Origin: Tabrizicola flagellatus
GTDB taxonomy: Bacteria > Pseudomonadota > Alphaproteobacteria > Rhodobacterales > Rhodobacteraceae
Reading direction: 5' to 3'
DNA length: 64,000 nt
Assembly: GCF_008271465.1 (NCBI RefSeq)
Contig: NZ_VMDU01000004.1
Span: 62,001 to 126,000, forward strand
The position numbers and the translations under genes are program-made. The first letter of the stretch is position 1. The number at the start of each line of letters is the position of its first letter. Below the pieces are notes generated by a model, which searched no databases, had not been told where the DNA came from, and saw nothing but the letters and a program-made list of their open reading frames with translations. This document shows, one piece after another, positions 2,528 to 38,783 of this stretch.

Positions 2528-3025
2528 CTAGACGGTGGTCTCCGCCACCGGCCTCTTCGCCTGGTCCGGGTTCAGCGTCATCACCGACCAGTTCAGCGCC
2601 GCCGCGATGCTGACCCAGGCGATATAGGGCAGGAACAGAAGCCCCGCGATCCAGTCCACCCGCCAGAAGGCCACCAGCGTCGCGGCGACCGCGACCCACA
2701 GCAGCGCCAGCACCAGCATCCCCGCCCGCATCCGTTTCAGTCCGAAGAAGACCGGGGTCCAGAGGCAGTTCAGCCCCATCTGCAAGGTGTAAAGCGCCAG
2801 CGCCATGCCGACCGCCGGGGTGACGCCGGCCTGCCGCGCCACCCGTTCGGCGGCCAGCGACATGCAGAGGTAAAGCGTGGTCCAGGCCACGGGGAACAGC
2901 CAGTTCGGCGGGGTCCAACTGGGCTTTTTCAGGCTTTCGTACCAAGCGCCGGGCGAAAACATCGCGCCCGTTGCGGCGGCCGGCCCGCAGGCCAGAAGAA
3001 ACACGAGGAAGACCCAGATATCCAT
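2528..3025 (-). CDS. tspO: TspO/MBR family tryptophan-rich sensory protein
   Basis: Five-helix outer/inner membrane protein of the TspO/peripheral benzodiazepine receptor family (165 residues, normal size). In Rhodobacter sphaeroides TspO modulates photosynthesis gene expression in response to oxygen, probably through tetrapyrrole handling. The family signature is visible as PSWTPPNWLFPVAWTTLY (residues ~34-52), with a Trp-rich core and five hydrophobic segments. The start ATG at 3025 opens with the hydrophobic first helix MDIWVFLVFLLACG. It lies 55 bp downstream of crtB in the same direction, as in other Rhodobacter photosynthesis clusters. Confidence 0.95.
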   Translation of the reverse strand: MDIWVFLVFLLACGPAAATGAMFSPGAWYESLKKPSWTPPNWLFPVAWTTLYLCMSLAAERVARQAGVTPAVGMALALYTLQMGLNCLWTPVFFGLKRMRAGMLVLALLWVAVAATLVAFWRVDWIAGLLFLPYIAWVSIAAALNWSVMTLNPDQAKRPVAETTV

Positions 3026-3080
3026 GGCGCGATCCTAGCGGTTGCGCCCCGGAAACGCCAGCGCAGGCGGTCCGGTTCCC

Positions 3081-4088
3081 TCAGACCGCGCCGCGCCGGT
3101 CGCGCGCCTCGAGCTGGGAAAGGATCGCGAGCAGCGTCTCGGAGCGCTGCGCGCGCGCCGGGCGCTGGCCTGCCGCCTCGACGAGGAAGGCCACCTCGGG
3201 CACCGGACGGGCGTGCAGTTGCGCAGGCTGTGGCATCAGGTGGGTCAGCAGGGAAGCCCCGGCGGCCTTGCCCATCAGCACCAGCTTCTGCCCGCGCGAG
3301 GTGCGCGCGCGGCGGGTGACGCTGTCATGGCCGGCCCGCGCGACCTCGGACCCGATCGCCGCGTAGATGTGCCGCGCCGCCGCGATCCCCAGCCGGCAAT
3401 CCGACGGCAGCGCCGAGACGCCCGCCCCCGCCCGGAGGTACAGATCCTCGGCCACCGCCAGAAGCCGCCGCACCACCCCCGCCAGCGCCGGCGAGGGCCG
3501 GGGGTCGGCCAGGAATGCATCCACGTCGATCCCGGCCTCGGCCAGCCAGTCCAGAGGCAGGAACAACCGCCCCGCCCGGGCGTCCTCGCCCACGTCGCGG
3601 GCGATGTTGGTCAGCTGCATCGCCAGCCCCAGGTCCGCCGCCCGCGCCAGCGCATCGGGGTCGCGCACCCGCATCAGGACGCACATCATCACCCCCACCG
3701 CCGAGGCGACCCGGGCGCTGTAGGCATGCAGGTCCGAAAGCGTGCGATAGCGCCGCCCCATCGCATCCCAGGCCAGCCCCTCCAGAAGCGCATCCGGCAG
3801 CGTGCGCGGCATGTCGAACCCCTCGACCACCGCCGCGAAGGCCCGGTCCGAGGAGCGCGGCTCGGGCCGCCCGGCATAGATCAGGTCCAGCCTCTCGCGC
3901 AGGCGAAGGACGGCATGCGCCTTGTCCTGCACCTCGTCCACGTCGTCGTCGGCCACCCGGCAGAAGGCATAGAGCGCGAGCGCCGGGTCCCGCACCCGTG
4001 CCGGCAGCAGACGCGAGGCGGCATGGAACGACAGGCTTCCGGTGCGGATCATCGCCCGGCAGGCCGCCATGTCCCCCGGCGCGATCAT
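3081..4088 (-). CDS. crtB: Phytoene synthase CrtB
   Basis: Condenses two geranylgeranyl diphosphates to phytoene. Both Asp-rich prenyl-binding motifs are present: CRVADDDVDEVQ near residue 45 and NIARDVGEDARAGRLFLP near residue 165. The 335-residue length is typical. The ATG at 4088 overlaps the crtI stop as ATGA, so crtI and crtB are translationally coupled. The pair should be transcribed from the PpsR-controlled promoter upstream of crtI. Confidence 0.97.
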   Translation of the reverse strand: MIAPGDMAACRAMIRTGSLSFHAASRLLPARVRDPALALYAFCRVADDDVDEVQDKAHAVLRLRERLDLIYAGRPEPRSSDRAFAAVVEGFDMPRTLPDALLEGLAWDAMGRRYRTLSDLHAYSARVASAVGVMMCVLMRVRDPDALARAADLGLAMQLTNIARDVGEDARAGRLFLPLDWLAEAGIDVDAFLADPRPSPALAGVVRRLLAVAEDLYLRAGAGVSALPSDCRLGIAAARHIYAAIGSEVARAGHDSVTRRARTSRGQKLVLMGKAAGASLLTHLMPQPAQLHARPVPEVAFLVEAAGQRPARAQRSETLLAILSQLEARDRRGAV

Positions 4089-35828: not shown

Positions 35829-36734
35829 ATGCCGCTGACCCCCGAACAACAGGCCGAGATCGAGGCCGCACGCGCCACGCCCCGCCCCACGCTCCGCGCC
35901 GTCAGCCCCGGCATGGAGGCGCATCTCTACCGCGCCCATCCCGTCCTCGACCACGGCTTCATCCGCGTCATCGACTACATGGGCGACGACAGCGCCATCG
36001 TCCAGGCCGCCCGTGTCTCATATGGGGCGGGCACCAAGCACGTCCAGAACGACGAAGGCCTGATCCGCTACCTGATGCGGCACTGGCACTCCACCCCATT
36101 CGAGATGTGCGAGATCAAGCTGCATGTGAAACTGCCGGTCTTCGTCGCCCGCCAGTGGATCCGCCACCGCACCGCGAACGTCAACGAATACTCCGCCCGC
36201 TACTCGATCCTCGACCGCGAGTTCTACATCCCCGCTCCCGAACACCTGGCCGCGCAAAGCACCGTCAACAACCAGGGTCGGGGCGAGGTGCTGACCGGCG
36301 AGGAAGCCGCCCGCGTGCTGGAGATCCTGAAATCCGACGCCAACCGCGCCTATGACCATTACGAGGCGATGCTGAGCCAGGACGGCCAGCAGGGCCTCGC
36401 GCGCGAACTCGCCCGGATGAACCTGCCGGCCAACATCTACACCCAGTGGTACTGGAAGGTGGACCTGCACAACCTCTTCCACTTCCTGCGGCTGCGCGCC
36501 GACCCCCACGCCCAGTATGAGATCAGGGTCTATGCCGAGGCGATTGCGGCCTGTGTGAAGGACTGGGTGCCATTGGCCTACGGGGCGTTCGAGGACTACC
36601 GGATGGGGGGAGTGACGCTGTCGGCGAAGGCCATCGCGGTCCTGAAGCGGCGGCTGGCCGGGGAGACGGTCACGCAAGAGGCCTCGGGGATGAGCAAGGG
36701 CGAGTGGCGGGAGTTTGTGGAGGTTTGGGGTTAG
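35829..36734 (+). CDS. thyX: FAD-dependent thymidylate synthase ThyX
   Basis: Makes dTMP from dUMP using FAD and methylenetetrahydrofolate. The ThyX signature RHRTxxxNE is present as [17 protein letters not shown]. Length is 301 residues with ATG 35829 after a weak GGAGC. It is a single gene, divergent from gloA and followed by the REP/RAYT island. Confidence 0.95.
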
Positions 36735-37057
36735 ACGGCAAAGAGAAGGAAAAACAATTACCCAGGGTTTTGGATGCAAATTATTACCGATGAAGCCCGT
36801 AGGGTGGGGTTCCACCCCACCCTCCCCACGCCCGATCCCAAACACCCCGCCTGGTTACAACGTCGGATGGTGGGGTGGAACCCCACCCTACGAACCCGGA
36901 TCGCCGCCCGCATCGCGGTGCCACGATCAATACGGCTCCCGACCAATCGATGTGTCAACGGGCGCCCGTAGGGTGGGGTTCCACCCCACCACTTCCCACG
37001 CCCGAACCCAAACGCCCCGCCCGGTCTCACCGTCGCATGGTGGGGTGGAACCCCACC
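36735..37057. other. Gene-free stretch between thyX and the RAYT gene
   Basis: About 60 AT-richer bases after thyX, then two complete REP pairs with their spacers and a ~76-bp segment between them. That segment resembles the 3' end of the transposase gene: GCATCGCGGTGCC occurs at ~36910 and again at ~37084. I see no coding potential here apart from peptides encoded by the REP sequences themselves. Confidence 0.7.
36799..36891. repeat. REP pair 1 (BIME-like unit)
   Basis: Two 23-bp REPs in perfect inverted orientation: 36799-36821 (begins GTAGGGTGGGG, ends CCCCACC) and 36869-36891 (its exact reverse complement). They are separated by 47 bp. Each REP is itself an imperfect palindrome (GGTGGGGT / ACCCCACC type). 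Confidence 0.93.
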
Positions 37058-37061
37058 CTAC
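36968..37061. repeat. REP pair 2 (BIME-like unit)
   Basis: Same two 23-bp REPs at 36968-36990 and 37039-37061, separated by 48 bp. The spacer is clearly similar to that of pair 1 (shared CCCACGCCCGA and CCCCGCC blocks). The right REP overlaps the transposase stop codon. Confidence 0.93.
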
Positions 37062-37639
37062 AGTATCCCCGCATCAGCCCCGGCATCGCGGTGCCGTGAT
37101 GAAAACGGCCAATCTTTCGGGTGTTCCGCCAACCCGTGCTTCACGGGATTGATCCAGCAATACCGGACGCAAGCCGCGAACGCCTCGTCGTCCCGGATGT
37201 GGTGCTCCCAGAACCGCCGCTGCCACACCCGCCCGTCGCCCTTCATGACCTTCGACTTGGAACGCGGCCTGCCATTTATCGTAGGGTGGGGTTCCACCCC
37301 ACCACCCACAGCAACCACCCGAGACATGCCCCGGTCATCCTCGACCATGGTGGGGTGGAACCCCACCCTACCGGTCAATGCCCGCGTGAACCGTGCCTTG
37401 ATCGCCCCCATTCGCACCGAATAATCGGCATCCCCCTCCGGCAATGTCCAGACCGCGTGCATGTGGTCGGGCAACACCACCCATGCGTCGATCCGGAACG
37501 GCCGCTCGGCCTTTGTCAGCCGCACCGCCACGCGCAATGCATCGACATGCTCGACCAACGTCCATGCACTGCGGTCAGCCAAATTCACGGTGAAGAACAC
37601 CGATGCGCCGGGAACCCTGGGGCGGATGTAGCTGGACAT
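37058..37639 (-). CDS. REP-associated tyrosine transposase (RAYT)
   Basis: Y1-type single-strand transposase of the RAYT/TnpA-REP group (193 residues). The HUH metal motif is HMH in VVLPDHMHAVWTLPEG. The catalytic Tyr is in CVRYCWINPVKHGL, and the family block WQRRFWEHHIRDD lies between them. The stop codon TAG is inside the right REP of pair 2. Residues ~91-121 are encoded by a complete REP pair inserted in frame (GRVGFHPT and GGGVEPHPT peptides). The catalytic motifs on both sides remain in one frame. ATG 37639 is the first plausible start. Whether the enzyme tolerates the insert is unknown. Confidence 0.9.
   Translation of the reverse strand: MSSYIRPRVPGASVFFTVNLADRSAWTLVEHVDALRVAVRLTKAERPFRIDAWVVLPDHMHAVWTLPEGDADYSVRMGAIKARFTRALTGRVGFHPTMVEDDRGMSRVVAVGGGVEPHPTINGRPRSKSKVMKGDGRVWQRRFWEHHIRDDEAFAACVRYCWINPVKHGLAEHPKDWPFSSRHRDAGADAGIL
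37281..37371. repeat. REP pair 3, inside the RAYT coding sequence
   Basis: The same two 23-bp REPs at 37281-37303 and 37349-37371, separated by 45 bp. Orientation matches pairs 1 and 2. The pair lies wholly within the transposase gene and keeps its frame open. Confidence 0.93.
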
Positions 37640-37684
37640 GCGGCGATCATCGCCGGGGTTGGTTAATCGGGGGTTTCCGACGAT

Positions 37685-37706
37685 GGTGCGCTGTAGCGCA
37701 CCCTAC
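37685..37706. repeat. Variant REP-like hairpin upstream of the RAYT gene
   Basis: GGTGCGC-TGTA-GCGCACC (37685-37702) followed by CTAC. It shares the GGTG...CACCCTAC ends of the right-hand REPs but has a different core. It stands singly, 46 bp upstream of the transposase start. Confidence 0.7.
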
Positions 37707-37751: not shown

Positions 37752-38144
37752 ATGACCCTCACCCTCTACGTCGTCACCGCCGCCGTCTTCCTGATCCTCG
37801 ACGCGATCATGCTGACGCTGGTGATGAAGCCGCTCTTCACCCGCCATATCGGCCCGCTCCTGGCGGAACCCATCCGCCTCGCCCCCGCCGCGCTCTTCTA
37901 CCTCGCCTATGTCGGCGGCCTCGTGTATCTCGTCTCGCTGCCGGCGCTGAAGACCGGCGCGCCGCTGCTGTTGCCTGCGCTCATCATCGGCCTGATGGCC
38001 TACGGCACCTACGAATTCACCTCCTGGGCGGTGATGAAGGACTGGCACTGGACGATGGTGGCGACCGACACGCTCTGGGGCGGCACGCTGACCGCATTCT
38101 CCGCCTGGGCCGGGGTCGCGATCACCCGGATGATCCACGGCTGA
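37752..38144 (+). CDS. DUF2177 family small membrane protein
   Basis: 130-residue integral membrane protein with about four helices: LYVVTAAVFLILDAIMLTLVM, LAPAALFYLAYVGGLVYLVSL, LLLPALIIGLMAYGTYEFTSWAV and a C-terminal segment. This is the pattern of DUF2177 proteins, whose function is unknown. AGGAGA precedes ATG 37752; the longer open frame upstream runs into the REP region. Confidence 0.85.
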   Translation: MTLTLYVVTAAVFLILDAIMLTLVMKPLFTRHIGPLLAEPIRLAPAALFYLAYVGGLVYLVSLPALKTGAPLLLPALIIGLMAYGTYEFTSWAVMKDWHWTMVATDTLWGGTLTAFSAWAGVAITRMIHG

Positions 38145-38227
38145 TCCCTTTGCGGCCCCCGGAATCTGTGTTACCACCCGGTAAACGCCTACGGGCAACC
38201 GTCTGAAACGAATAGCGAATCCGGAAA

Positions 38228-38242
38228 TGTCCACCGTGGACA
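38228..38242. promoter_or_regulatory. Inverted repeat upstream of the ArsC/Spx-like gene
   Basis: Perfect 7-bp inverted repeat TGTCCAC-C-GTGGACA, 11 bp before the ATG at 38254. A second short palindrome, TTACC-ACCC-GGTAA, lies at about 38171-38184. Either could be an operator; no regulator is assigned. Confidence 0.45.
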
Positions 38243-38253
38243 GAAAGGCCAGC

Positions 38254-38580
38254 ATGATCCTCTACGGCATTCCCACCTGCGACAGCTGCAAGAAGGCCCT
38301 CAAGGCGCTGCAAGCCGCGGGCAAGGACGTGACCTTCCGCGACATCCGGGCCACACCGCTCACGCAAGCAGAGGTCGAGCGCATCGTGCAGGAATTCGGG
38401 GACCGGGCGGTAAACCGGCAGTCCACCACCTATCGCAGCTTCAACGATTTCCTGAAGGCATCCGACCCCGAGGCGCAGATCATGGCTCAACCGACCGTGA
38501 TGAAACGGCCGGTCATCCAGGACGGGGATCGCTGGTATCTGGGGTGGGACAGCGCGACCGAAGCCGCGCTGACCGCCTAG
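38254..38580 (+). CDS. ArsC/Spx family (YffB-like) thioredoxin-fold protein
   Basis: 108-residue protein of the arsenate reductase/Spx/YffB group. The N-terminus ILYGIPTCDSCKKALKALQ has the CxxC pair, and the C-terminal PTVMKRPVI matches the family. It lacks surrounding ars genes, so a YffB-like role is more likely than arsenate reduction. ATG 38254 has AAAGG upstream. Its stop codon shares a CTAG with the convergent cold-shock gene. Confidence 0.85.
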   Translation: MILYGIPTCDSCKKALKALQAAGKDVTFRDIRATPLTQAEVERIVQEFGDRAVNRQSTTYRSFNDFLKASDPEAQIMAQPTVMKRPVIQDGDRWYLGWDSATEAALTA

Positions 38581-38783
38581 AGCAGGCGCAGGTCGCCGGC
38601 CGACATCTTGCCGTCGCGGCCCGACTGCAATTCGTAGCCGATCTTCTGGTTGTCGCTCAGGCCCTTCAACCCGGCGCGCTCCACCGCCGAGATGTGCACG
38701 AAGACGTCCTTCCCGCCGTCATCCGGCGCGATGAACCCGTAGCCCTTGGTCGAATTGAACCATTTCACGGTGCCTGTCGGCAT
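38577..38783 (-). CDS. Cold-shock domain protein (CspA family)
   Basis: 68-residue nucleic acid chaperone. RNP1 is KGYGFIAPD and RNP2 is DVFVHISAV, in the usual order after MPTGTVKWFN. Full length for a CspA protein. The stop overlaps the convergent ArsC-like stop within CTAG (38577-38580). Confidence 0.96.
   Translation of the reverse strand: MPTGTVKWFNSTKGYGFIAPDDGGKDVFVHISAVERAGLKGLSDNQKIGYELQSGRDGKMSAGDLRLL

Follow-up and report, generated by a model that had tools for sequence, protein, structure and literature searches.

REPINs, reportedly described by Bertels and Rainey in 2011, are said to consist of two inverted REPs with a short spacer, to be tied to a REP-associated tyrosine transposase (RAYT) and to lie mostly outside genes. 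In the part of their paper used here, Quentin et al. (2018, PMC6006769) present in-frame REPs inside tnpA_REP genes, between the HuH and Y motifs, as a unique feature of subclass 2.4. They matched this TnpA_REP subclass to RAYT group 4 of Bertels. In the literature that we searched, to which most subscription papers and supplements do not belong, REPs inside RAYT genes were not reported elsewhere, and absence from print is not claimed. An earlier note on the DNA studied here had called the arrangement unusual. As a kind it has been in print since the 2018 publication of in-frame REPs in tnpA_REP genes (PMC6006769, as far as the part used here goes). The finding bears on the question of how RAYTs keep step with their REP families as both diverge.

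The window is the whole stretch of DNA analysed, 64,000 nucleotides from Tabrizicola flagellatus. It contains a RAYT gene on the minus strand (37058-37639) that encodes 193 amino acids. The protein matches the NCBIfam model NF047646 (REP-associated tyrosine transposase) with 168 bits, the cut-off being 80. No Pfam family matched the RAYTs at an E value of 0.001. The nearest solved relative by sequence is E. coli TnpA_REP (PDB 4ER8, E=1.7e-37). It is also the top Foldseek hit of the predicted model, with a TM score of 0.83 on the length of 4ER8. The HUH motif, DHMH, occupies residues 58-61 (37457-37468, minus strand), and H59 and H61 are invariant in both alignments. The Y motif reads YCWINP. 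Its tyrosine Y160 (37160-37162, minus strand) stands in a column invariant in both alignments, at a distance of 102 from the HUH motif. We take it, from the RAYT literature, to be the catalytic tyrosine. With this core of HUH and a single tyrosine, the gene is, judged by its sequence, a member of the RAYT/TnpA_REP family. W139 and Q140 (37220-37225, minus strand) align with W94/Q95 of 4ER8. This position belongs to the GTAG-recognition segment described for E. coli TnpA_REP (PMC6006769, in the part used). Between helix alphaC and W139/Q140 runs a linker of 54 amino acids (residues 85-138; 37226-37387, minus strand), which contains the insert.

The gene is flanked on one side by thyX and on the other by a block of three genes. 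The thyX gene (35832-36734, plus strand, start codon approximate; TIGR02170, PF02511) encodes a FAD-dependent thymidylate synthase and marks a conserved locus. The block consists of a DUF2177 membrane protein (37752-38144, plus strand; PF09945), an ArsC-family protein (38254-38580, plus strand; PF03960 above its cut-off, NCBIfam matches all below theirs) and a cold-shock domain protein (38577-38783, minus strand; PF00313). Two further repeats lie in this region. One REP from a second family (GATGGTGCGCTGTAGCGCACCCTAC) occurs singly at 37682-37706, a short distance upstream of the start of the RAYT. This second family also provides the stop codon of the RAYT paralogue at C3 of this genome and occurs at several further genomic sites. 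A near-palindromic repeat with AATCCGGAAATGTCCACCGTGGACAG is found at about 38184-38245, upstream of the ArsC-family gene, and has about 20 other matches in the genome.

Three REP pairs are present at the RAYT gene. The arms of all three are identical, 23 bp long, and consist of GTAGGGTGGGGTTCCACCCCACC and its reverse complement. Pair 1 (36799-36891) has arms at 36799-36821 and 36869-36891 with a spacer of 47 bp. Pair 2 (36968-37061) has arms at 36968-36990 and 37039-37061 with a spacer of 48 bp, and its GTAG gives the stop codon of the RAYT (37058-37060). These two pairs lie directly 3' of the gene. Pair 3 (37281-37371; arms 37281-37303 and 37349-37371, spacer 45 bp, 91 bp in total) is inside the RAYT open reading frame, with the HUH motif on one side and Y160 on the other. 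Its inverted-repeat score is 24, against a maximum of 11 among 200 shuffles, so a chance origin of the arms is ruled out. The length of 91 bp is not a multiple of three; therefore one or two junction bases must have changed too. These elements are REPINs: they have two inverted REP hairpins, a short spacer and further copies in the genome. The copy number is low: the genome has 10 exact copies of the arm core, of which 4 lie outside the RAYT locus. The earlier note had given the three pairs with 23-bp arms and the same spacers, and had placed pair 3 in frame between the HUH and Tyr motifs. Both points agree with the sequence. It had also put the addition at about 31 residues; the addition stands, and its size is 32-33 (linker of 54 against 21-22 amino acids).

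A stretch adjoining pair 1 (36895-36936, no strand assigned, detected among repeat families) is a 42-nt copy, at 79%, of the 3' end of the RAYT gene (37068-37109). Pair 1 and this stretch are likely a decayed tandem duplicate of the gene end plus its REPIN. The spacer of pair 3 was compared with those of pairs 1 and 2, giving z values of 1.5 and 2.0 in the same orientation and of 3.0 and 2.0 in the opposite one. Kinship of the spacers is not demonstrable from such values (z 1.5-3.0), and we do not claim that pair 3 was copied from either. An assembly artefact was rejected, the same anatomy being present in many genomes.

The alignment with 4ER8 locates the insert on the protein structure. Residues 1-87 of the window protein correspond to 1-87 of 4ER8, and 137-187 to 92-142. 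The extra residues thus map between residues 87 and 92 of 4ER8, right before W94/Q95, where the window RAYT has 49 residues between the aligned blocks and 4ER8 about 4. The AlphaFold model (35 sequences) has a mean pLDDT of 82.5 and a confident core. A helix at 73-93 is followed by a low-confidence stretch, with mean pLDDT values, over ten-residue blocks, of 51 (91-100), then 62, 45, 54 and 70. In our reading of this model, the insert forms a flexible loop that joins alphaC to beta4 and lies close to the GTAG-recognition segment. Modelling on a RAYT structure had been proposed as a check of the insert. It gave a confident core and a low-confidence loop between alphaC and beta4 (AlphaFold, 4ER8).

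Uninterrupted homologues have linkers of 21-22 amino acids, against 54 in the window RAYT. One is the RAYT paralogue of the same genome (C3:256938-257408, 157 amino acids). RAYT matches are present in 28 of 32 Tabrizicola genomes, and related species carry a short linker at the same locus (L020, L021, L022, L025 and L153). Of these, L025 (genome G031) lies beside thyX and is 82% identical to the window protein before the linker and 91% after it. Among the best 80 named records, all 11 readable ones whose titles give neither Rhodobacteraceae nor a broader alphaproteobacterial name have linkers of 21-22 amino acids, four more such records being unreadable by the linker patterns. Short linkers thus occur in the own genome, at the same locus in sister species and in further proteobacteria, which marks the REP pair as something added. 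The uninterrupted version that the earlier note proposed to look for among relatives was thus found, both as the C3 paralogue and as L025 at the same locus. A clean empty site was not found, as the 21-residue linker of L025 is unrelated to that of the window. It is possible that linker segments were exchanged between RAYTs in L025.

The insert is found at the same locus in other genes, for example L012, L013, L016, L018, L061, Marivivens L068/L131 and L060/L140. Here, the same locus means at least one of the neighbour genes in the available flanks, many of which are short. By this definition 54 of the 167 loci tested have a neighbour, which in a substantial share of these loci is the cold-shock gene alone. 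In Tabrizicola aquatica (L010/L130), a linker of 45 amino acids is kept and the arms have decayed; the available flanks hold none of the neighbour genes. To judge from the sequences compared, the insert is not recent.

A family-level search over 394 genomes gave RAYT matches in 130, and the named loci are the best 80 of at least 573 relatives. Together, the family, genus and named loci comprise 150 distinct RAYTs whose linker could be read; it is long in 83 and short in 67. By the score and shuffle criterion, paired inverted arms are present in 58 of the 83 long-linker genes and 25 are without them. This count covers the linkers readable by our patterns and is not a frequency in nature, the loci having been picked by similarity to insert-bearing queries. 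The first linker table leaves aside 25 stretches (contig ends, the frameshifted L026 and pattern misses), with long linkers among them in L086, L105, L052 and L077. The second leaves aside 13 (L137, one of two L142, L148, L167, L176, L178, L183, L186, L187 twice, L191, L202 and L209), of which L137, L148, L178 and L183 have visibly long linkers. A long linker with mere remnants is the label of 20 of 149 genes. Within this scope, the arrangement that the earlier note called unusual is not a single case, given the 58 of 83 long-linker RAYTs with paired arms. The note's suggestion of a possibly self-limiting transposase is unsupported: the genus has 10 complete clade-B genes, and 9 of them are intact.

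In 45 genes both tags are intact and in the order GTAG to CTAC. The GTAG arm is in one frame in 44 of them. The REPIN length is a multiple of three in 42, and the window REPIN, with its 91 bp, is an exception. Pairs in the opposite order occur in L073, L079, L086 and L101. In the core tree of 149 genes, those with and without the insert are interleaved with mostly low support, so gains and losses of the insert were not counted. The HUH motifs among 161 genes are DHMH (70), DHLH (60), DHIH (18), NHMH (3), NHLH (2) and others (8). The HuH-Y distance in long-linker genes (n=85) has a median of 88 and a range of 75-127.

Some loci show further rearrangements. L158 of Roseicyclus marinus (3001-3711) has a composite linker of 79 amino acids, apparently made of parts of two REP families. 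In its core it hardly differs from L088, a gene with one pair of another type. In L026 (G004), of the same clade as the window gene, the first of the in-gene arms has an additional base close to its tag, which shifts the frame, and both palindromic arms remain. Finally, L015/L059 (G008) includes a C-terminal RAYT fragment with REP-like residues beside an intact gene.

We examined the stop codons of 149 distinct RAYT genes. TAG is used in 104, and in 93 it lies inside GTAG. A stem of at least 6 bp follows 78 of these 93 genes, against 6 of 149 shuffled downstream stretches. A GTAG stop with a stem is present in 27 of 66 short-linker and 51 of 83 long-linker genes. Di Nocera et al. (PMC3733652), in the part consulted, report that GTAG REPs often provide stop codons.

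To relate in-gene arms to the REP families of their genomes, we searched 32 genomes for exact arm cores of four types and counted them. In 25 of them the RAYT is of one of the four types, and the 7 others, with other loop types, stand outside the test. The in-gene copies were removed and the flanking ones kept. In 21 of the 25 genomes the in-gene arm type outnumbered each of the three others, the exceptions being G423, G439, G003 and G398. None of 20,000 label shuffles reached this value, a figure that serves only as a guide with related genomes and flanking copies kept. At the level of fine loop types within the genus, among the genomes listed, there is a fit in G004 and G002, a mixed picture in G005 and no fit in G013 and G030. 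The earlier note had regarded the in-gene pair as the transposase's own substrate. The part that stands is that the pair probably belongs to the same REP family, being of the commonest type in 21 of 25 genomes; this is an association and says nothing of binding.

The constraint on the insert was estimated with nine intact Tabrizicola orthologues (L011-L019), taken irrespective of arm type. The other clade-B loci are L026, with its frameshift, and L024, L027, L052 and L058, which are cut by contig ends; the arms of L027 differ by one base. The nine genes show four loop types, with differences from species to species, and a homologous spacer. Their arms are complementary at 22 of 22 positions in eight genes and at 21 of 22 in one, and arm variation is limited to a 7-nt loop per arm and one tag base. 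Of the 30 sites in stems and tags, 1 is variable. None of their 8 third positions is, whereas in the core 83 of 134 third positions are (p=0.0007). On the other hand, whole arms including the loops vary like the core, overall (15/44 vs 139/402, p=1.0) as well as at third positions (6/14 vs 83/134, p=0.25). The loop changes alter residue pairs in both arms: FTP/VNP, FRP/LKP, RAP/ARP and PAP/AGP. In the window and in L118, the CTAC arm is in another reading frame.

A comparison of five genes gave 0 of 14 third positions varying in the arms against 59 of 132 in the core. These genes were chosen by one arm type, so the result is partly circular as main evidence and the nine-gene set was used instead. 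In the same five genes, the core has an excess of third over first and second position changes (p=3e-10), and in the spacer 13 of 24 third positions vary against 9 of 46 first plus second ones (p=0.006). An own-partner score, beaten by none in 38 of 53 genes, was rejected as partly circular, since the arms had been picked by complementarity. From the coding pattern in core and spacer and from the frozen stems, the protein seems to be under selection through the insert, while stems and tags appear to be held as DNA and the loops to change in pairs.

The reading that we favour, with confidence slightly above even, is a tolerated and inherited REPIN kept in step with the substrate family of the enzyme. 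We set our confidence at this level because the five-gene result is partly circular. The observations behind this reading are the position of the insert, its absence from short-linker homologues, the open frame, the synteny, the intact ORFs, the coding-type substitution, the frozen stems, the mirrored loops and the association with the commonest REP type. Against it stand the whole arms, which vary like the core, the four genomes without the fit of arm type, the misfit of fine loop types in G013 and G030, the failure to find a clean empty site and the 91-bp length of the window REPIN. A REPIN of the RAYT's own substrate family would have arrived in the linker, which is exposed and leads from alphaC to the GTAG-recognition segment, presumably by RAYT-mediated insertion. 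The linker tolerates it, and the extra loop may have little effect on catalysis. The gene with its REPIN has been passed on as an apparently working enzyme, in the genus and in some other genera at one chromosomal locus. Enzyme and REP family would co-evolve, the in-gene copy being refreshed or selected along with the other copies. In Rhodobacteraceae, the in-gene REPIN might even be a built-in cis element, a protected reference copy through which the specificity of the enzyme is tied to the sequence of the REPs. Its arms would follow the REP family of the genome, and one reading frame would pass both between generations and genomes. We consider this role unlikely.

Repeated independent insertions of the genome's REP family into the linker, as a hot spot, are a possible and partly compatible alternative, which we hold only tentatively. 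The four opposite-order pairs (L073, L079, L086 and L101) suggest more than one event. The differing offsets, the composite linker of L158 with its two REP types and the interleaved genes in the core tree also favour it. However, the support of that tree is mostly low, and genus members with four different arm types share a homologous spacer, so that there the arms changed inside an inherited insert. We doubt that the insert is a neutral passenger, tolerated and with arms that match only through template switching, which copies changes from arm to arm. Such a passenger would account for the symmetry, for arms that match each other better than the fine loop types of their genome and for the persistence of decayed linkers (L010 and the 20 of 149 remnants). 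It gives no reason to expect that stems and GTAG tags stay unchanged from species to species (1/30; 0/8 vs 83/134), or that there is a family-scale fit to the genome's REP type.

Cis-regulation is another improbable explanation. A REPIN hairpin in the RAYT mRNA, or a RAYT site on its own gene, would limit RAYT synthesis, and selection would keep the arms palindromic. As sense RNA, the in-gene REPIN has a folding energy of -69.3 kcal/mol (z -6.8), and the discussion of PMC3733652, in the part consulted, suggests that REPs lower RAYT expression. But both intergenic REPINs form folds of equal strength (z -8.6 and -9.0), so folding is common to any REPIN. Such regulation is not essential either, with 67 of 150 linkers short and 25 of 83 long ones without paired arms by the criterion used. 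Least probable, and very unlikely in our view, is that the added residues act as a functional peptide, with the match to REPs as a secondary matter. The coding-type constraint of the spacer (13/24 vs 9/46, p=0.006) and the single frame of the GTAG arm in 44 of 45 genes point in this direction, although the shared frame may reflect common descent. Loop changes hit residues of both arms at once, the CTAC arm is in another frame in the window and L118, and the loop is modelled at low confidence. The earlier note had named REP-free homologues with the same extra residues as the case against an insertion. Only decayed forms were seen (L010/L130 and the genes with a remnant label), and protein constraint alone does not give mirrored loop changes and frozen stems. 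In these RAYT genes, the enzyme and a REP pair occupy one reading frame, often at one conserved locus. Natural alleles include arm switches and insert-free relatives, and therefore RAYT-REP co-evolution is testable with existing alleles. The locus is also an example of a coding sequence bound to a palindrome.

At the level of the genes compared, our finding carries what was published in 2018 over to a further RAYT lineage and a different loop, and differs from it in motif and in the loop used. Four candidate 2.4 proteins from plasmid records (Bernardetia, Chlorohelix, Gloeocapsa and R. rubrum) had long inverted arms in 0 of 4 cases, so the comparison with subclass 2.4 follows the paper. REPINs in general are mostly extragenic, whereas one lies here inside the RAYT coding sequence. 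As in subclass 2.4, according to the part of PMC6006769 used, the REP is in frame inside the gene between the HuH and Y motifs and the linker is variable in length, with a median HuH-Y distance of 88 there and of 88 in our long-linker genes. In contrast, the motifs there are NH[IFV]H and YIxNNP (consensus from the paper's table), and DHMH and YCWINP in the window RAYT. By the paper's description, the insert there lies between beta3 and alphaC, and here between alphaC and beta4. The hosts there are Cyanobacteria, Bacteroidetes and various phyla, and here Rhodobacteraceae. The E. coli TnpA_REP (4ER8), of subclass 2.2, shares with the window RAYT the equal spacing of W, Q, E, H and R in the recognition segment, but has no REP pair in its gene linker. 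The traits of subclass 2.2, in the same part of PMC6006769, are DHLH, WE, YIHYNP, a short alphaC-beta4 insertion and an SS tail, against DHMH, WQ and YCWINP in the window. Finally, intragenic REPs and Rickettsia palindromic elements are also in-frame palindromic inserts, whose dimers add 20 to 30 residues (PMC3733652, in the part consulted). They occur there mainly in DNA repair and other host genes, whereas here the host of the insert is the REP-associated transposase.
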